From: an uncultured Eggerthellaceae bacterium
Lineage (GTDB): Bacteria > Actinomycetota > Coriobacteriia > Coriobacteriales > Eggerthellaceae
Assembly: GCA_944320405.1 (NCBI GenBank)
Contig: CALUHI010000001.1
Coordinates: 1-64,000, forward strand
Reading direction: 5' to 3'
DNA: 64,000 bases
The position numbers were made by a program, and so were the translations under genes. The notes beneath the pieces were generated by a model. The model had not been told where the DNA came from and searched no databases. It worked only from the letters and a program-made list of their open reading frames with translations. Each line of letters begins with the position of its first letter. Within the stretch, counting starts at the first letter, position 1. Shown piece after piece: positions 32,269 through 63,344 of this stretch.

Positions 32269-32329
32269 CGGCCCTCGACCGAAATGCGGAATAACTAGAC
32301 TGTGAATTCCGCATTTCGGTCGAGGGCCG
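32269..32329. repeat. Long palindrome, copy C (24-bp arms, 13-nt loop)
   Basis: A perfect 24-bp inverted repeat (32269-32292 with 32306-32329) surrounds a 13-base loop. Its inner 19 bases CTCGACCGAAATGCGGAAT are identical to those in copy D (37846-37910), while outer bases differ in a paired way. It lies between two converging genes, the CmpB-like gene and kdpE, and could end both transcripts. Confidence 0.85.
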
Positions 32330-32400
32330 CTCAGTTTTCCGATCCAAAACCCAAAAAAGGAGCATTCCGCATCCCAGCAGATTTGCGACGGCGCGCGCAC

Positions 32401-33093
32401 CTATTCCCCAATGAAACGATATCCAACACCTACCTCGGTCGCAATGAAGCGAGGGTTGGCGGGTCTGTCTCCCAGTTTGCGGCGCAGCGAGGCCATGATC
32501 ACACGCAGCGTCCGGTAACCATCCGAAGCATCATGCCCCCACACCTCGCGCTGGATGAAACGGTGCGTGAGCGCTTTCCCGCGGTAGCGGACCATCACCA
32601 TCAGCATGCCGTATTCGTAAGGCGTAAGGTGAACCGGCTCTCCATCAAGACTTACCGTCCTCGTGTCGTTGTCGATCGTCAATCCGCCAATTGAATAGAC
32701 GTGAGTTTCGTCGTTGGATCGCAAAATGTGCGCGCGATGACGAAGCGCCACGCGGATGCGCGCGAACAGCTCCGCCATACTGAAAGGCTTTACCACGTAA
32801 TCGTCGGCGCCGGCGTCAAGGGCGCTCACTTTCTGATCATCCTGAGTACGCGCGGTCACCACGATCACCGGAGTCGACCCGCATTCGCGAATGTGCGAGA
32901 GCACCTCCATCCCATCGCAATCAGGAAGTCCCAAATCAAGCAGAACGAGAGATGGCGCATTCGCATCGAACAGCGACAACGCGACCGTTGCGGACTTCGC
33001 CTCGCTCACGCGATACCCTTCCGTCTTCAAGGAGATGCGCAGAAGGCGTCGAATGCTGTCGTCATCTTCGACGACGAGGATCTCGTCAGACAT
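32401..33093 (-). CDS. kdpE: KdpE-type response regulator
   Basis: This is an OmpR-family regulator with a receiver domain (acidic pocket EDDD near residue 9, phospho-acceptor Asp in LVLLDLGLPDCDG, Lys in VVKPFS) and a winged-helix DNA-binding domain ending GVGYRF. The closest recognisable family is KdpE, partner of KdpD. The ATG at 33093 overlaps the kdpD end by 8 bp. The operon holds TrkH and TrkA-like genes instead of the Kdp ATPase, so it probably controls Trk-type potassium uptake (inference). Confidence 0.88.
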   Translation of the reverse strand: MSDEILVVEDDDSIRRLLRISLKTEGYRVSEAKSATVALSLFDANAPSLVLLDLGLPDCDGMEVLSHIRECGSTPVIVVTARTQDDQKVSALDAGADDYVVKPFSMAELFARIRVALRHRAHILRSNDETHVYSIGGLTIDNDTRTVSLDGEPVHLTPYEYGMLMVMVRYRGKALTHRFIQREVWGHDASDGYRTLRVIMASLRRKLGDRPANPRFIATEVGVGYRFIGE

Positions 33094-34651
33094 CGTCATC
33101 CCCTTTGCCTTCCGCCATCTCTGTCAACGCTTCCTCTGCTTCACGTTCCGCATGCTCCAAGGGAAGCCAGAGCTCGAACGTGGCACCGCCTTCTGGATTG
33201 TTGCGCGCGCTGATGCTGCCTCCGTGAGCTTCGACAATCGCCTGACAGATACTCAGACCCAACCCGATGCCGCTTTTCTTGCCGGGAGCCGCGCCTTCCG
33301 AGACAAACCGCCCGAATATCTTCCCCAGCATGTCCGGCGCTATGCCTCCAGCATCGTCTGACACCCTGAACACGGCCCTGTCGCCTTCCACTTCCGACGA
33401 CACCGTAATGCGCGCCGTCGGATCGGAATGCTTGATGGCGTTGTCAATCAGATTGATGAGCACCTGACGGATAAGCTTGCCATCCATGGGAACCAATACC
33501 ACATCGTCGGGAGGCAGCACGGAGATTTCGTGCCTGCCGCGGTAGGGCATTTCATGCATCACCGCGTCGCCGATGACGTCGTCGACGACCTCTGGCTGGA
33601 AATCGAGCGGAACATCTTCGTCCTGAACGCGCGTCATACCCAAAAGATTGTCGATCATCTCGGCGAGCCATCGCGCATCCGCTGCCATAGACGATAGCAG
33701 TGACCGACGCTCGGATTCACCTACTTGATCGCAGTTGTCCTTCAAGAATTCGGCGTTTCCCTGGATACTCGCAAGCGGCGTGCGAAGGTCATGCGAGACG
33801 CTGCGCAAAAGCGTTGTCTTGAAGCGTTCGCGCTCGATTTTCAGTTCGTCTGCGCGCGCATGCTCCTCAAGGTTGTTGCGCTCCACGGCAATCACGGTCT
33901 GTTTGATGGCGGAATCTAAAAACGACCGCCCCGCTTTATCAAGGCCGCCGCCGCTGCAATCGATGGACACCACGCCGTACACATGCGCCTTTGCCGCCAA
34001 AGGAACATAGAGCCAGGTGCAATCGGCGGACCCTCCCGCCCCGGCACCGGTTTGATAGCCCTGCTCGAAGCACTCTACTGCTGCGGCGTCGTCCGATGGA
34101 CGCCCTAGCGTAATCGAGACCTCGCGTCCCAGCACGCGGCAGAGCGCATCCGCAGCAAACGAGCAGGCGCCCTCCGCCGAAGTGCTGTCGATCAAGCCCG
34201 CGCTGATCTTGTTCAGCCGACGCAGGACCAGCGCATTCCGCTCGGCGATTTCAACCTGCTGTTTCATGCGGTTGGTGAGTGCGCCGGTGATGAGTGCTAC
34301 GACTGCGAAGATGACCAGCGTCACCGCGTCAGTCCAGTTGAAAATCAGAAGCGAGAGATGAGGCATTGCGAAAAACAGGTCATACACCAGCAGGTACATG
34401 ACGCCAAGCGCAATTCCCCACAACCCAGAGTCGGTTTCCAGTGAGGCGATAAGGATTCCCACAATGAACAGCAAAAAGCTCGCCTCGGGTTCGAGCCCCA
34501 CCTGCGAAAAGCCGAATGACATAGCGATGCCCGCGACAAACAGCAAGACAACGACGCCCGCATTCCGCAAAGCGCGCGGCGTTCGACGCGGCACGGAAGC
34601 ACCATCGCCAGGTTGCCTGTCAAGCCTCATCGCATCAACGTTGGGAGACAT
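33086..34651 (-). CDS. KdpD-like sensor kinase lacking the cytoplasmic N-terminal domains
   Basis: The protein starts with a short tail and then four membrane helices of the DUF4118 type (about residues 28-125), a GAF-like domain (about 145-260), HisKA with SHDLRTP (His near 287) and a HATPase domain with N box NLIDNAIKHS and G boxes DDAGGIAPD and GIGLGLS. Full KdpD (about 890 aa) has in addition N-terminal KdpD and universal-stress domains; those are absent here, leaving 521 aa. GAGGAGG precedes the ATG, so the short form is a real gene and not a fragment. It overlaps trkH by 17 bp and kdpE by 8 bp. Confidence 0.88.
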   Translation of the reverse strand: MSPNVDAMRLDRQPGDGASVPRRTPRALRNAGVVVLLFVAGIAMSFGFSQVGLEPEASFLLFIVGILIASLETDSGLWGIALGVMYLLVYDLFFAMPHLSLLIFNWTDAVTLVIFAVVALITGALTNRMKQQVEIAERNALVLRRLNKISAGLIDSTSAEGACSFAADALCRVLGREVSITLGRPSDDAAAVECFEQGYQTGAGAGGSADCTWLYVPLAAKAHVYGVVSIDCSGGGLDKAGRSFLDSAIKQTVIAVERNNLEEHARADELKIERERFKTTLLRSVSHDLRTPLASIQGNAEFLKDNCDQVGESERRSLLSSMAADARWLAEMIDNLLGMTRVQDEDVPLDFQPEVVDDVIGDAVMHEMPYRGRHEISVLPPDDVVLVPMDGKLIRQVLINLIDNAIKHSDPTARITVSSEVEGDRAVFRVSDDAGGIAPDMLGKIFGRFVSEGAAPGKKSGIGLGLSICQAIVEAHGGSISARNNPEGGATFELWLPLEHAEREAEEALTEMAEGKGDDDV

Positions 34652-36140
34652 AGTGCACCTCCTCTTTGACCGCTTGGAACATCCATCTCAATCCAAAGAT
34701 GAGCGGGAATATCTCAAGACGCCCGAACAGCATAGCAGCAGAAGCCACGACAAGCACCACGGAGGGCGATTCTGCGTGCAGGAACCCCACGCCGATACCG
34801 GTATTGCCCAAACATGACGCCGCTTCGAAGACGGCGTCTCCCACCGAGGCACCGAACAGCGCGAATATGAATCCGCAGATCACAAGCAACCCCACATACA
34901 CTCCGACGAACGTCTGCACGGAGGACACCTCTTCCGGACGGCATTCGATGCGTTTGCCGAAGCGATTGATCTTGTTGCTGTACACCCGTCGACGGTGCCC
35001 GAATCGATCGCGGAGCGACCACAAAAGACCTTTCGAGTACACGACGAACCGGTACACCTTGATACCACCAGATGTCGAACCCGCTTCTCCTCCAACGATC
35101 ATGAGGAACACCAGCACATACAGAATGCTGGGAATAAGAGTTCCGAAATCGGGAATGGTTTGCAGCCCCGTCGACGTCATGATCGATACGGTTTGGAACA
35201 GGCTCACACGCAGCGCTTCCAGCACGGTCTGCTCCATGCCGCCAGCGAACAGCAGCGCTGCCACCACCGCCGTTGCGGCGATTATGATGCCCAGGAACGC
35301 CCCTGTTTCTGCATGGCGCACGAACGCACGAAACCGTCCCTGCAGCAACATGAAGTTCAGCAGGAAGTTGGTTGCGCCAGCCATCATCAGGATGATGGTA
35401 ATGAGCTCGATGGCAAAGCTGCCATAGGATGCTAGAGAATCGGGACGAACGGCAAACCCGCCTGTCGACACCGCAGAAATCGAGATGTTGATGGCGTCGA
35501 AGATAGGCATTCCTGCGATGACGTAAGCGATGGCGCCAATGAGGATGATGCCCGTGTAAAGAACAAGCACCATGCGCGCCGACCCCGCCGTACTGGAAAG
35601 AAGTCGCTCGGTATGGCCTTCGGCGTTGTACATCTTCAGCCCATGAGAGTCGCTGACGATGCATGTGAGCACCAGGATCAAGCCTACGCCGCCCATGTAG
35701 TGCATCATGCCGCGATGCATGAGGACGATCTTGGGGCATGAGGCAACATCCACCACGGAAAGCCCCGTGGTAGTGATGCCGCTGGTTGCCTCGAAGATCG
35801 CCTGAGGAACCGTCAGCTCGCCTGAAAGAACCAAAGGGGTGGCAAACACGACGATACCCGAAGCCCAGATGATCACGGTAACGCCCGCTGCTTCCGCGCG
35901 AGAAAGCGTAAACGCTGCCGCATCACGTGCCCCAAAAAAATAGACCAGGTAGCCAATGAGCATCGCGCAAACGCCGGGAAAGATGAAAGCGGGAGCGAGT
36001 CTTGTCTCATGTGGGTAGAAAGGAAGGACCGCAAGGGGGACGAGCAGCGCAGCCCCCAATGCGATCACCGCAAGCCCGGCATACCCCGCAACCGCATGGG
36101 CGCTGTTCCGATGAACGCTAGGCAGGGACGTGCGTGCCAT
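34635..36140 (-). CDS. trkH: TrkH/KtrB-type potassium transporter
   Basis: TrkH is the membrane pore of a potassium uptake system gated by RCK proteins. Repeated M1-P-M2 units are seen with selectivity-loop glycines in EATSGITTTGLS, ISAVSTGGF, GGEAGSTSGGIK and AASCLGNTGIG. The 501-aa length is usual. The gene overlaps the upstream TrkA-like gene by 23 bp and kdpD by 17 bp, so the five genes form one tight operon. Confidence 0.93.
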   Translation of the reverse strand: MARTSLPSVHRNSAHAVAGYAGLAVIALGAALLVPLAVLPFYPHETRLAPAFIFPGVCAMLIGYLVYFFGARDAAAFTLSRAEAAGVTVIIWASGIVVFATPLVLSGELTVPQAIFEATSGITTTGLSVVDVASCPKIVLMHRGMMHYMGGVGLILVLTCIVSDSHGLKMYNAEGHTERLLSSTAGSARMVLVLYTGIILIGAIAYVIAGMPIFDAINISISAVSTGGFAVRPDSLASYGSFAIELITIILMMAGATNFLLNFMLLQGRFRAFVRHAETGAFLGIIIAATAVVAALLFAGGMEQTVLEALRVSLFQTVSIMTSTGLQTIPDFGTLIPSILYVLVFLMIVGGEAGSTSGGIKVYRFVVYSKGLLWSLRDRFGHRRRVYSNKINRFGKRIECRPEEVSSVQTFVGVYVGLLVICGFIFALFGASVGDAVFEAASCLGNTGIGVGFLHAESPSVVLVVASAAMLFGRLEIFPLIFGLRWMFQAVKEEVHYVSQR

Positions 36141-36549
36141 TTCCCATCACCCCGAACGAGGCTTCCTCGATCAAACGCGCCACCGTGTACGTCGCGCTGA
36201 TCACCGAGGAGATTCCCAGCTTTTTGAAAACGACAACGTTGCGCGGATCGCTCACCGTACACACCTGCCGGTCGATGTCGAAATAGCGTTGCGCCATTTG
36301 GCAAATGACAAGATTGTCGGCATCGCTGTCGGACAGCGCAATAACGAGGTCGAACCCCTCCACATCGGCATCGTCAAACACATATCGCTTGGTCGCATCG
36401 CCGCATACCACCGGCACGCCATGCCGTGAAGACATGTGCTCGCACCAGGTGCGGTCGCCATTGATCACAACTACTTCGTTACCTCTCCTAACGAGGGATT
36501 CAGCAAGAAAATCGGTACGGGATCGCCCACCCGCAATCACCACGCGCAT
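36118..36549 (-). CDS. TrkA-like single RCK-N domain protein (second)
   Basis: This 143-aa protein is one Rossmann-type TrkA-N domain with VVIAGGRSRTD near the start and DDADVEGFDLVIALSDSDADN in the middle. The TrkA-C domain is missing. The first glycine motif deviates from GxGxxG (AGGRSR), so nucleotide binding may be weak. The neighbouring gene encodes another single TrkA-N domain, and together they may replace a two-domain TrkA. It overlaps trkH by 23 bp. Confidence 0.82.
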   Translation of the reverse strand: MRVVIAGGRSRTDFLAESLVRRGNEVVVINGDRTWCEHMSSRHGVPVVCGDATKRYVFDDADVEGFDLVIALSDSDADNLVICQMAQRYFDIDRQVCTVSDPRNVVVFKKLGISSVISATYTVARLIEEASFGVMGNGTHVPA

Positions 36550-36558
36550 GAATCCTCC

Positions 36559-36978
36559 TTACGCTATTCGGGATAAGCGACAGAATTCGTCCAGGCACAA
36601 CGCATGTGGACAAATGGGCTCGATGGGACTGTCTTCCAGCATGCCGATGAGATCCTCATCCTCAATGCGGGCAAACACGCGCTCCACGCCGTAGATTTCG
36701 CTGGCAACACGAGCGATGAAGTAGTTCACGGAGTCGCGCTCAGTACATGCAACAAGAAGAGACGATTTCGCGACGTCGCATTCTTCCAAAACTGAAACGT
36801 CGGCGCCGTCGGACACAACCGATTCTCCCCCGAATCGTGCAGAAAGCCCTGCAAAGGCGGCGGGATCCGTGTCGACCACGATGACGGAGAAGCCGGCGGC
36901 CGAAAGACTGTCGGCAGCAGCGAGGCCAAACTCACCGCACCCAACCACCAACGCTCGCTTCACCTTCACAAGCGCCAT
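36559..36978 (-). CDS. TrkA-like single RCK-N domain protein (first)
   Basis: This 139-aa protein is also a lone TrkA-N domain with a good nucleotide motif VVGCGEFGLAAADSL at residues 10-24 and the acidic ribose-binding VVDTD. The ATG at 36978 has GGAAAGGGGAC upstream; the frame is open further but without a start signal. It is the first gene of the potassium operon and ends 9 bp before the second TrkA-like gene. It probably binds NAD(H) or ATP and gates TrkH (family knowledge). Confidence 0.86.
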   Translation of the reverse strand: MALVKVKRALVVGCGEFGLAAADSLSAAGFSVIVVDTDPAAFAGLSARFGGESVVSDGADVSVLEECDVAKSSLLVACTERDSVNYFIARVASEIYGVERVFARIEDEDLIGMLEDSPIEPICPHALCLDEFCRLSRIA

Positions 36979-37028
36979 AATGTCCCCTTTCCACGACTGC
37001 CAAACGATGCCCACCCGATGATGCGACG

Positions 37029-37063
37029 AGTATAGGAAACGCGATGTAAAGATGGTCTTAAAG
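37029..37063 (-). promoter_or_regulatory. Candidate promoter and KdpE-like box of the potassium operon
   Basis: On the minus strand a -10 TATACT (37029-37034) lies about 50 bases before the first gene. Upstream, CTTTA occurs twice 12 bases apart (CTTTAAGACCAT-CTTTACATC, 37043-37063), resembling the direct repeats bound by OmpR-family regulators such as KdpE. No good -35 is present, which fits an activated promoter. Confidence 0.4.
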
Positions 37064-37101
37064 TCGGGCAATGTTGCGAACACACAGTGGAACATGCATG
37101 A

Positions 37102-37846
37102 TCGCTCTATCCCTCTTTCAAATGCACACGAAAACCCTACTGGGAAAGTCTCTCGAAACGCGAACGGGCATACCGGACAATTGCGGCGCTTCAGCGCCTC
37201 CATCCCACCTGGACATTCTGCCGAACCTCCGCCGCCATTGCTCTAGGACTTCCCATGACGCTCAACGACCTCGATTCAGTGCATATCGCAGTAGACTCCG
37301 CCAAGCGCAGTCGCGCCACGAAAGGAGTACGCCGGCATGTGGTCGAAGGAGATTCGCCCATCGTCGTAAGAGGGATCAGAACCACGTCGTTTGAGCGAAC
37401 CGTGTTTGACTGCATGAGAACCGTGGATTTCGGAATGGCGGTTGCCGTCTCCGATCATGTCCTTAGACAAAGCAAGCTTGTCAAAGCCCACTGCAGCAAA
37501 ACTGGACAAAGCAAGAGCCGTTATCTCGCTTATTTCAACTCACCCGACATGCGAAAACTGAAGGGATCGCGTCGTGCGGTGATCGCCATGCTCTACGCCG
37601 ATCCGAGAAGTGAAAGCGTCGGAGAATCGCTCTCACGTGCTGCGATGATCGAGATGGGATTCGCTCTGCCCGATCTGCAAACAACGTTGCCCCATCCACT
37701 GAATCCCGACAGAAAATATCGCGTGGATTTTTGCTGGCTGAGAGAAGACGGGGTGCTCGTCATAGACGAATTCGACGGTGCAGTGAAATACGAAGATCCT
37801 GAGATGAGAGGTGGCATTTCGGCATTGATACGGAGCGTCGAACTCG
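37102..37846 (+). pseudogene. Decayed AbiEi/DUF559-like gene
   Basis: An open frame from the TGA at 37099 to the palindrome at 37846 encodes a protein of the kind found in many Coriobacteriia: an AbiEi-like N-terminal region (AALQRLHPTWTFCRTSAAIALGLP) followed by a DUF559-like endonuclease fold with RVDFCWLREDGVLVIDEFDG. No ATG, GTG or TTG occurs in frame before 37255, which is already inside the conserved part, and the C-terminal end is cut where the palindrome starts. After the palindrome the frame runs on to 38007 in unrelated sequence. I read it as a gene damaged at both ends. Whether it was an antitoxin or a nuclease cannot be told. Confidence 0.6.
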
Positions 37847-37910
37847 CCGGTTCTCGACCGAAATGCGGAATAATTCGCCGTTCAATTCCGCATTTCGGTC
37901 GAGAACCGGC
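37846..37910. repeat. Long palindrome, copy D (26-bp arms, 13-nt loop)
   Basis: A perfect 26-bp inverted repeat (37846-37871 with 37885-37910) with a 13-base loop. The inner 19 bases are the same as in copy C, and the outer pairs differ from copy C but still pair. Pairing extends outward as ACTCG/CGAGT after a 2-base bulge. It truncates the pseudogene on its left and faces the 3' end of the VOC gene on its right. Confidence 0.85.
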
Positions 37911-37991
37911 ACGAGTAAGGCATCCATCATCGGATAATGCCAGATACCAGCACGCCTATCCAGGCACAGAGGAAAAGCAAGTCGCGGTCGG

Positions 37992-38315
37992 TTACTTCTC
38001 CTCGTAGAGTTCGATGATGGCGTCGTCTTTGACGACGAATGCCAGGTGCACGTTGTCACCCAGACTCTCGGGGCCGAAGATCACGCGGTCAGCATCGGCA
38101 ATGTAGTGCTCGATGTCGTCGACCGCATAAGCCACATGCGGCTGTTTGGAGAGGATCTCGGGGAAGCGCGTGCCTTCTTCGAACTTGAGGTACTCGATCT
38201 TGTAGTCGTAGGCATCCACGCTCTCGTTCACCCAAAAGCCGCCCCATTCGTTGTAGACCATGCCGGGCTTCTTGTTCAGAACGGGAATGCCGATGTGCAT
38301 ATAGGTTGCGGACAT
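37992..38315 (-). CDS. VOC (glyoxalase-like) family protein
   Basis: A 107-aa protein with one vicinal-oxygen-chelate half-fold: MHIGIPVLNKKPG at the start, HVAYAVDDIEHYI in the middle and HLAFVVKDDAIIELYEE at the end, giving possible metal ligands His and Glu. Such proteins bind or isomerise small carbonyl compounds. The ATG at 38315 has AGAAAGG upstream. It is the last gene of an operon with an aldolase, DhaL and DhaK, so it may act on the same carbohydrate (inference). Confidence 0.75.
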   Translation of the reverse strand: MSATYMHIGIPVLNKKPGMVYNEWGGFWVNESVDAYDYKIEYLKFEEGTRFPEILSKQPHVAYAVDDIEHYIADADRVIFGPESLGDNVHLAFVVKDDAIIELYEEK

Positions 38316-63232: not shown

Positions 63233-63344
63233 GGCGTGACGGGGGACGGTCCTTCCGTCACATTTGCAATGTGACGGAAGGACCGTCCCCCGTCACGCCT
63301 CAAACGAATTATCCAAAGGTGACAGACGGAACGTCCCCTGTCAC
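63233..63344. repeat. Three 26-bp palindromic units (REP-like)
   Basis: The unit GTGACGGAAGGACCGTCCC-CCGTCAC occurs inverted at 63236-63261 and direct at 63271-63296, making a perfect 32-bp inverted repeat (63233-63264 with 63268-63299). A third, diverged unit is at 63319-63344 (22 of 26 identical); it changes the outer G-C pair to A-T and keeps the pairing. Units of this type are spread widely in related genomes from my memory of them. The stop of the EamA gene (63309-63311) is here. Confidence 0.85.

Follow-up and report, generated by a model that had tools for sequence, protein, structure and literature searches.

Perfect intergenic hairpins of Eggerthellaceae and their association with an AbiEi-nuclease-like gene

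Two long palindromes with a common core lie in a 64,000-nt stretch of DNA from an uncultured Eggerthellaceae bacterium (the window), and the question that they raise is what recognises them and how such elements came to be dispersed. Hairpin C (32269-32329, no strand assigned) is a lone copy between two convergent genes, with arms at 32269-32292 and 32306-32329, the core at 32274-32292 and 32306-32324 and the loop at 32293-32305. Hairpin D (37846-37910, likewise without a strand) directly follows a decayed AbiEi-nuclease-like gene; its arms are at 37846-37871 and 37885-37910, its core at 37853-37871 and 37885-37903 and its loop at 37872-37884.

The hairpin family in the source genome and its relatives

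As described in the first-pass annotation, C and D are perfect inverted repeats with 100% complementary arms (24 nt in C, 26 nt in D), the 19-base core is the same 19-mer, CTCGACCGAAATGCGGAAT, in all four arms, and the loops are both 13 nt long and unlike in sequence. Within the window CTCGACCGAAATGCGGAAT occurs in the four C and D arms only, even with three mismatches allowed (chance expectation 0.02). When folded as single strands, C and D are far more stable than shuffled sequences on both strands (z approximately -10 to -11). The exact full hairpin is confined to C and D in the whole source assembly (G000; 2.0 Mb, 43 contigs), and a third, diverged copy, E, is located at C10:152669-152733 near a DNA polymerase IV-like gene, bringing the number of copies in this genome to three. 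An Rfam search with the hairpins returned sub-threshold chance matches to miRNAs only, and nothing among plasmid sequences matched the C region.

To follow the family further we applied covariance models to 138 genomes of the same family as the source. Hairpin copies were present in 18 of these, with per-genome copy counts that are lower bounds: sampled copies in several relatives ranged from roughly at least 8 to at least 27 per genome. By blastn query, G128 and G008 each have more than 20 copies and G053 has nearly 20. The palindrome family postulated from C and D thus has many further members in related genomes, nearly all of them perfectly paired. Pattern-scan matches outside the lineage (Lentzea, Salinarchaeum and others) look like chance.

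The covariation of the outer arms seen in C and D holds family-wide: across 12 aligned copies both sides have changed in 43 stem cells, versus 14 in shuffles, and 96% of the stem cells pair. A consensus of the stem reads approximately ATnnTCGnCCGAAA..., its inner and outer parts being genome-specific, and the whole element is a near-perfect hairpin of 55-65 nt. A fixed loop length had also been suggested; this is true of C and D (13 nt) but not of the family, in which the unpaired loop varies from ~6 to 16 nt. Despite the varying sequence and length of the loop, the distance spanned by the two CGnCCGAAA cores hardly changes across the family (45-47 nt). These data support the view that the C/D family consists of dispersed, mostly intergenic, structure-constrained palindromes, and the family is very probably tied to some cognate protein.

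Among enzymes associated with REP-like hairpin repeats, RAYTs are the best known, and a RAYT/HUH transposase had been the recogniser initially put forward for C and D. Repeats of the REP/REPIN kind, moved by a RAYT (HUH Y1 transposase), would be dispersed much as the hairpins are, and REPINs show compensatory stem changes of the same kind (PMC3116915). The Y1 HUH gene that the first-pass annotation suggested looking for does exist in the source genome, as a RAYT-like gene at C11:35537. However, it is flanked not by C/D hairpins but by a different repeat, GTGACAGGGGACGGTCCTTCTGTCAC, with two copies on each side (locus L185 on C11, 426-460, 1307-1340, 2305-2340 and 2875-2910). Since this real RAYT repeat is present in the same genome and is unlike C/D in sequence, it provides a built-in positive control. 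Y1_Tnp is present in 71 of the 138 genomes and in 11 of the 18 hairpin genomes, without any co-occurrence with the hairpins (Fisher p=0.45), and G128 and G008, each with more than 20 hairpins, have zero Y1_Tnp matches at E<=1e-5. Inspection of the aligned copies likewise revealed no GTAG or CGTC foot beside the hairpins. Given the lack of co-occurrence and the separate repeat at the RAYT-like gene, we rejected the RAYT link, which we regard as very improbable.

Two further palindromes resemble repeats found beside RAYT-like genes. The window contains, at 63233-63299, a perfect 32-bp inverted repeat with a 3-nt loop that includes GGGGACGGTCC; it is closely related to the repeat flanking the RAYT-like gene of the source genome and looks like a genuine REPIN-type pair. 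In G053 another long perfect palindrome, of the GGGACGGGGTCAATGACTCA type (L215, 454-535), resembles one beside the RAYT-like gene of that genome (L190).

A partner gene between matching hairpins

Comparison of the genes located beside hairpins revealed one protein family that lies between two hairpins in different genera. The partner protein has ~350 residues. Its N-terminal half is AbiEi-like: PADLOC AbiEi models match this half in 15 of 15 aligned homologues (best E 1e-12), Pfam AbiEi_4 gives weak matches in 6 of the 15, and none of the NCBIfam AbiEi models scores above cut-off. In the C-terminal half E206, D240, E254, D256, K260 and R282 are invariant in the alignment and sit in GGES, RVDFLW, GEFDG..K and R. 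The order E..D..ExD..K..R is that expected of PD-(D/E)XK/Vsr-type nucleases, and on this motif reading the C-terminal half is predicted to be a PD-(D/E)XK (Vsr/DUF559-like) nuclease; the match to Pfam DUF559 is weak (E 0.047). A PDB sequence search with the protein yielded chance matches only, and an AlphaFold model built from two sequences was poor (pLDDT 39).

By profile search the partner protein is present in 14 of the 138 genomes, usually as a single copy. Hairpins occur in 10 of these 14 genomes versus 18 of 138 overall (p=7e-8). Since the genomes are not independent, the genus-level figure is fairer, with hairpins in 8 of the 10 protein genera versus 10 of 48 (p=5e-6). The overlap is conservative, as the gene of G142 is bracketed on both sides and yet was missed by the covariance model. 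In most genomes at least one end of the gene carries a hairpin: two-sided flanking is seen in G008, G053, G001, G142, G129, G042 and G005, one-sided flanking in other genomes. A search around 32 homologues placed a hairpin no more than 400 nt from 32 of their 64 ends, with 10 genes flanked on both sides, and zero hairpins elsewhere in 64 kb of flank; at the stringent score threshold used (>=15), the imperfect hairpins that G411, G427 and G405 possess go uncounted. Some homologues are without any hairpin, and the gene is absent from the hairpin-bearing genomes G128, G127 and G032. In G005 and G129 the dispersed hairpins are mostly of another subtype than the gene-adjacent ones.

Of 398 Coriobacteriia genomes sampled, 143 contain homologues, and a search of viral contigs found none. 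In G087, G341, G411, G427 and G405, which belong to other families, the hairpins are of quite different sequence and match each other across the gene, and different, mutually matching hairpins likewise accompany the gene of G156, from the same family as the source. In G087 the changes that distinguish the two gene-side hairpins are compensated, and a third, dispersed copy lies 7 kb away. For 11 genes the protein and hairpin distances are correlated (Mantel r=0.63, p=0.0007), with shared ancestry contributing to the correlation. G008 has a second partner-gene copy (C2:89280-90323) whose hairpin subtype, CGATCCAAAAACACG, has a dispersed near-copy (L223, 1890-1951); this one genome holds two partner genes and two hairpin subfamilies.

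In the window a remnant of an AbiEi plus PD-(D/E)XK-like gene occupies 37105-37845 on the plus strand and ends directly at D. The remnant is short of ~50 N-terminal and ~75 C-terminal residues; the profile match to it spans 37036-37830 and includes one TGA, and a mechanically called ORF (37255-38007) starts inside the remnant and reads on through D. Since the decayed gene runs into D, and since G001 has neither gene nor hairpin at this site, D probably marks the right end of a hairpin-gene-hairpin unit that is now dead, with C probably being a lone derivative.

AbiEi and Rv2827c each bind two inverted repeats of 23 bp located in front of the gene that encodes them (PMC7319586), a length close to that of the hairpin arms here, and the upstream hairpin is mostly located ~50-100 nt before the start codon of the partner gene. 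Both observations would suit hairpins that are immobile operators of an AbiEi-type regulator, arm binding serving autoregulation and the dispersed copies representing a regulon or structural sites. However, a matching hairpin is also found 0-80 nt past the stop codon, which sometimes falls inside the hairpin (as in G129 and G005), the dispersed copies tend to lie near the 3′ ends of genes and in convergent rather than divergent gaps, and hairpins persist in genomes that do not have the gene. We therefore consider an operator function of this kind unlikely.

Placement and evolution of the dispersed copies

The positions of 114 copies in 14 genomes comprise 57 tandem gaps, 32 convergent gaps, 17 divergent gaps and 5 sites inside called genes, the individual classes being approximate since genes were called with a home-made program based on codon usage. 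In tandem gaps the hairpin lies closer to the upstream gene (median 74 nt from the upstream stop versus 136 nt to the next start, p=0.001). Such enrichment at 3′ ends and in convergent gaps, together with the very stable stems and the strong conservation of the arms, could indicate bidirectional terminators or mRNA 3′-end stems that spread by descent, with an incidental link to the gene. However, a U-tract is missing (8 of 212 ends have at least five T among the first 8 nt), a separate canonical terminator lies within 150 bp of 20 of the 114 copies, and the hairpin-bearing gaps are not short of canonical terminators. Counts of G-U versus A-C on the sense strand of tandem copies, which left out the misregistered copies L039, L047 and L050, show no clear preference for G-U and carry little information on selection at the RNA level. 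The bracketing and co-occurrence would be left unexplained by a terminator. In view of the absent U-tracts and the other terminators in hairpin gaps, we have mostly rejected the terminator explanation as improbable.

The sister species G008 and G053 share 15 orthologous copies. Their arms differ at 12 of 599 aligned bases (2%), their flanks at 167 of 1056 (16%) and their inner or loop bases at 50 of 292 (17%). Paired substitutions are found between orthologous copies (for example, L138 of G128 versus L125 of G129), and at the L144 site the hairpin is kept in three species with arms that are different and largely paired. Among the 15 G008/G053 pairs, approximately 3 (L148 versus L157, L214 versus L219 and L210 versus L218) have a loop that lies between perfect arms and, with respect to the flanks, is oppositely oriented in the two species, a sign of arm-to-arm exchange in DNA. 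Exchange of this kind is what one would expect of neutral fossils, kept perfect by template switching in replication and served by no partner protein. This scenario appears highly improbable: the arms diverge approximately eight times more slowly than the flanks, the spacing of the cores is near-constant, and it would account for neither bracketing nor co-occurrence.

Most copies are common to the sister species, and any mobility would therefore be old or rare. In the loci compared between relatives we found neither a precise empty site nor a target duplication. At L144, G032 is without the hairpin, but other genes occupy the site, and the C locus in G001 and G002 is too rearranged for an empty-site comparison.

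A putative two-component system and its relation to known systems

We consider it probable that C and D are parts of a two-component repeat system of Coriobacteriia, made up of the hairpin and the AbiEi-nuclease-like gene. Its anatomy, covariation, bracketing, co-occurrence, co-divergence, arm conservation and loop inversion are observed; from these we infer binding, cutting and mobility. The autonomous unit would be hairpin-gene-hairpin, ~1.2-1.4 kb in length, and the lone intergenic hairpins its non-autonomous derivatives. The AbiEi part would bind the inverted arms of 22-26 bp, the nuclease part would nick or cut at the hairpin or at a target, and repair or replication would copy the hairpin into intergenic sites. 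Arm-to-arm template switching or conversion, combined with selection for recognition, would keep the arms identical and occasionally invert the loop. More tentatively, a restriction-fold nuclease with an AbiEi-type DNA-binding half may recognise and copy hairpin DNA as an enzymatic alternative to the HUH enzymes (RAYT), one that is widespread in Coriobacteriia and has lineage-specific hairpins co-evolving with it.

If this is true, a second, unrelated enzyme has hairpins of its own and the REP-like life-style arose twice. It would also account for dozens of palindromes that have so far gone unannotated in Eggerthella relatives, a common human-gut family in which recognition and copying are directly testable, and suggest a possible job for AbiEi-like proteins that have no toxin partner. 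A limited literature search, covering open-licence papers, found no description of a hairpin/AbiEi-nuclease system.

The partner protein shares with the AbiEi antitoxins (AbiEi of S. agalactiae and Rv2827c) the AbiEi-type N-terminal half and the ~23-bp inverted repeat pairs near the gene; unlike these, it has a nuclease-like C-terminal half, and its hairpins lie on both sides of the gene and are dispersed genome-wide. The C-terminal half has the motif order E...VDF..W...E.DG..K...R of the Vsr/DUF559 restriction-fold nucleases; no curated model scores above cut-off. Inverted repeats that flank a gene and give rise to short derivatives are also characteristic of the MITEs of insertion sequences and of TIRtrons, the latter being RAYT-like genes flanked by long TIRs; here, however, the two ends are each a full hairpin in themselves, not one half of a terminal inverted repeat, and there is no known transposase.

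The closest parallel is with REP/REPIN repeats and their RAYTs (REPtrons), which likewise combine dispersed intergenic palindromes with a cognate gene that has these palindromes on either side, and which show compensatory stem changes, orphan repeats and 3′-end placement. For REPINs, an origin from repeats on either side of an ancestral autonomous element has been proposed (PMC3116915). Unlike the case with REPtrons, the cognate protein here combines AbiEi with a predicted PD-(D/E)XK domain instead of HUH Y1, the whole element is a hairpin of 55-65 nt that bears no GTAG/CGTC tag, and the true RAYT repeat of the source genome is separate. By analogy, the hairpin system would work like a REPtron but is not a member of that group, having a different enzyme and no REP tag.
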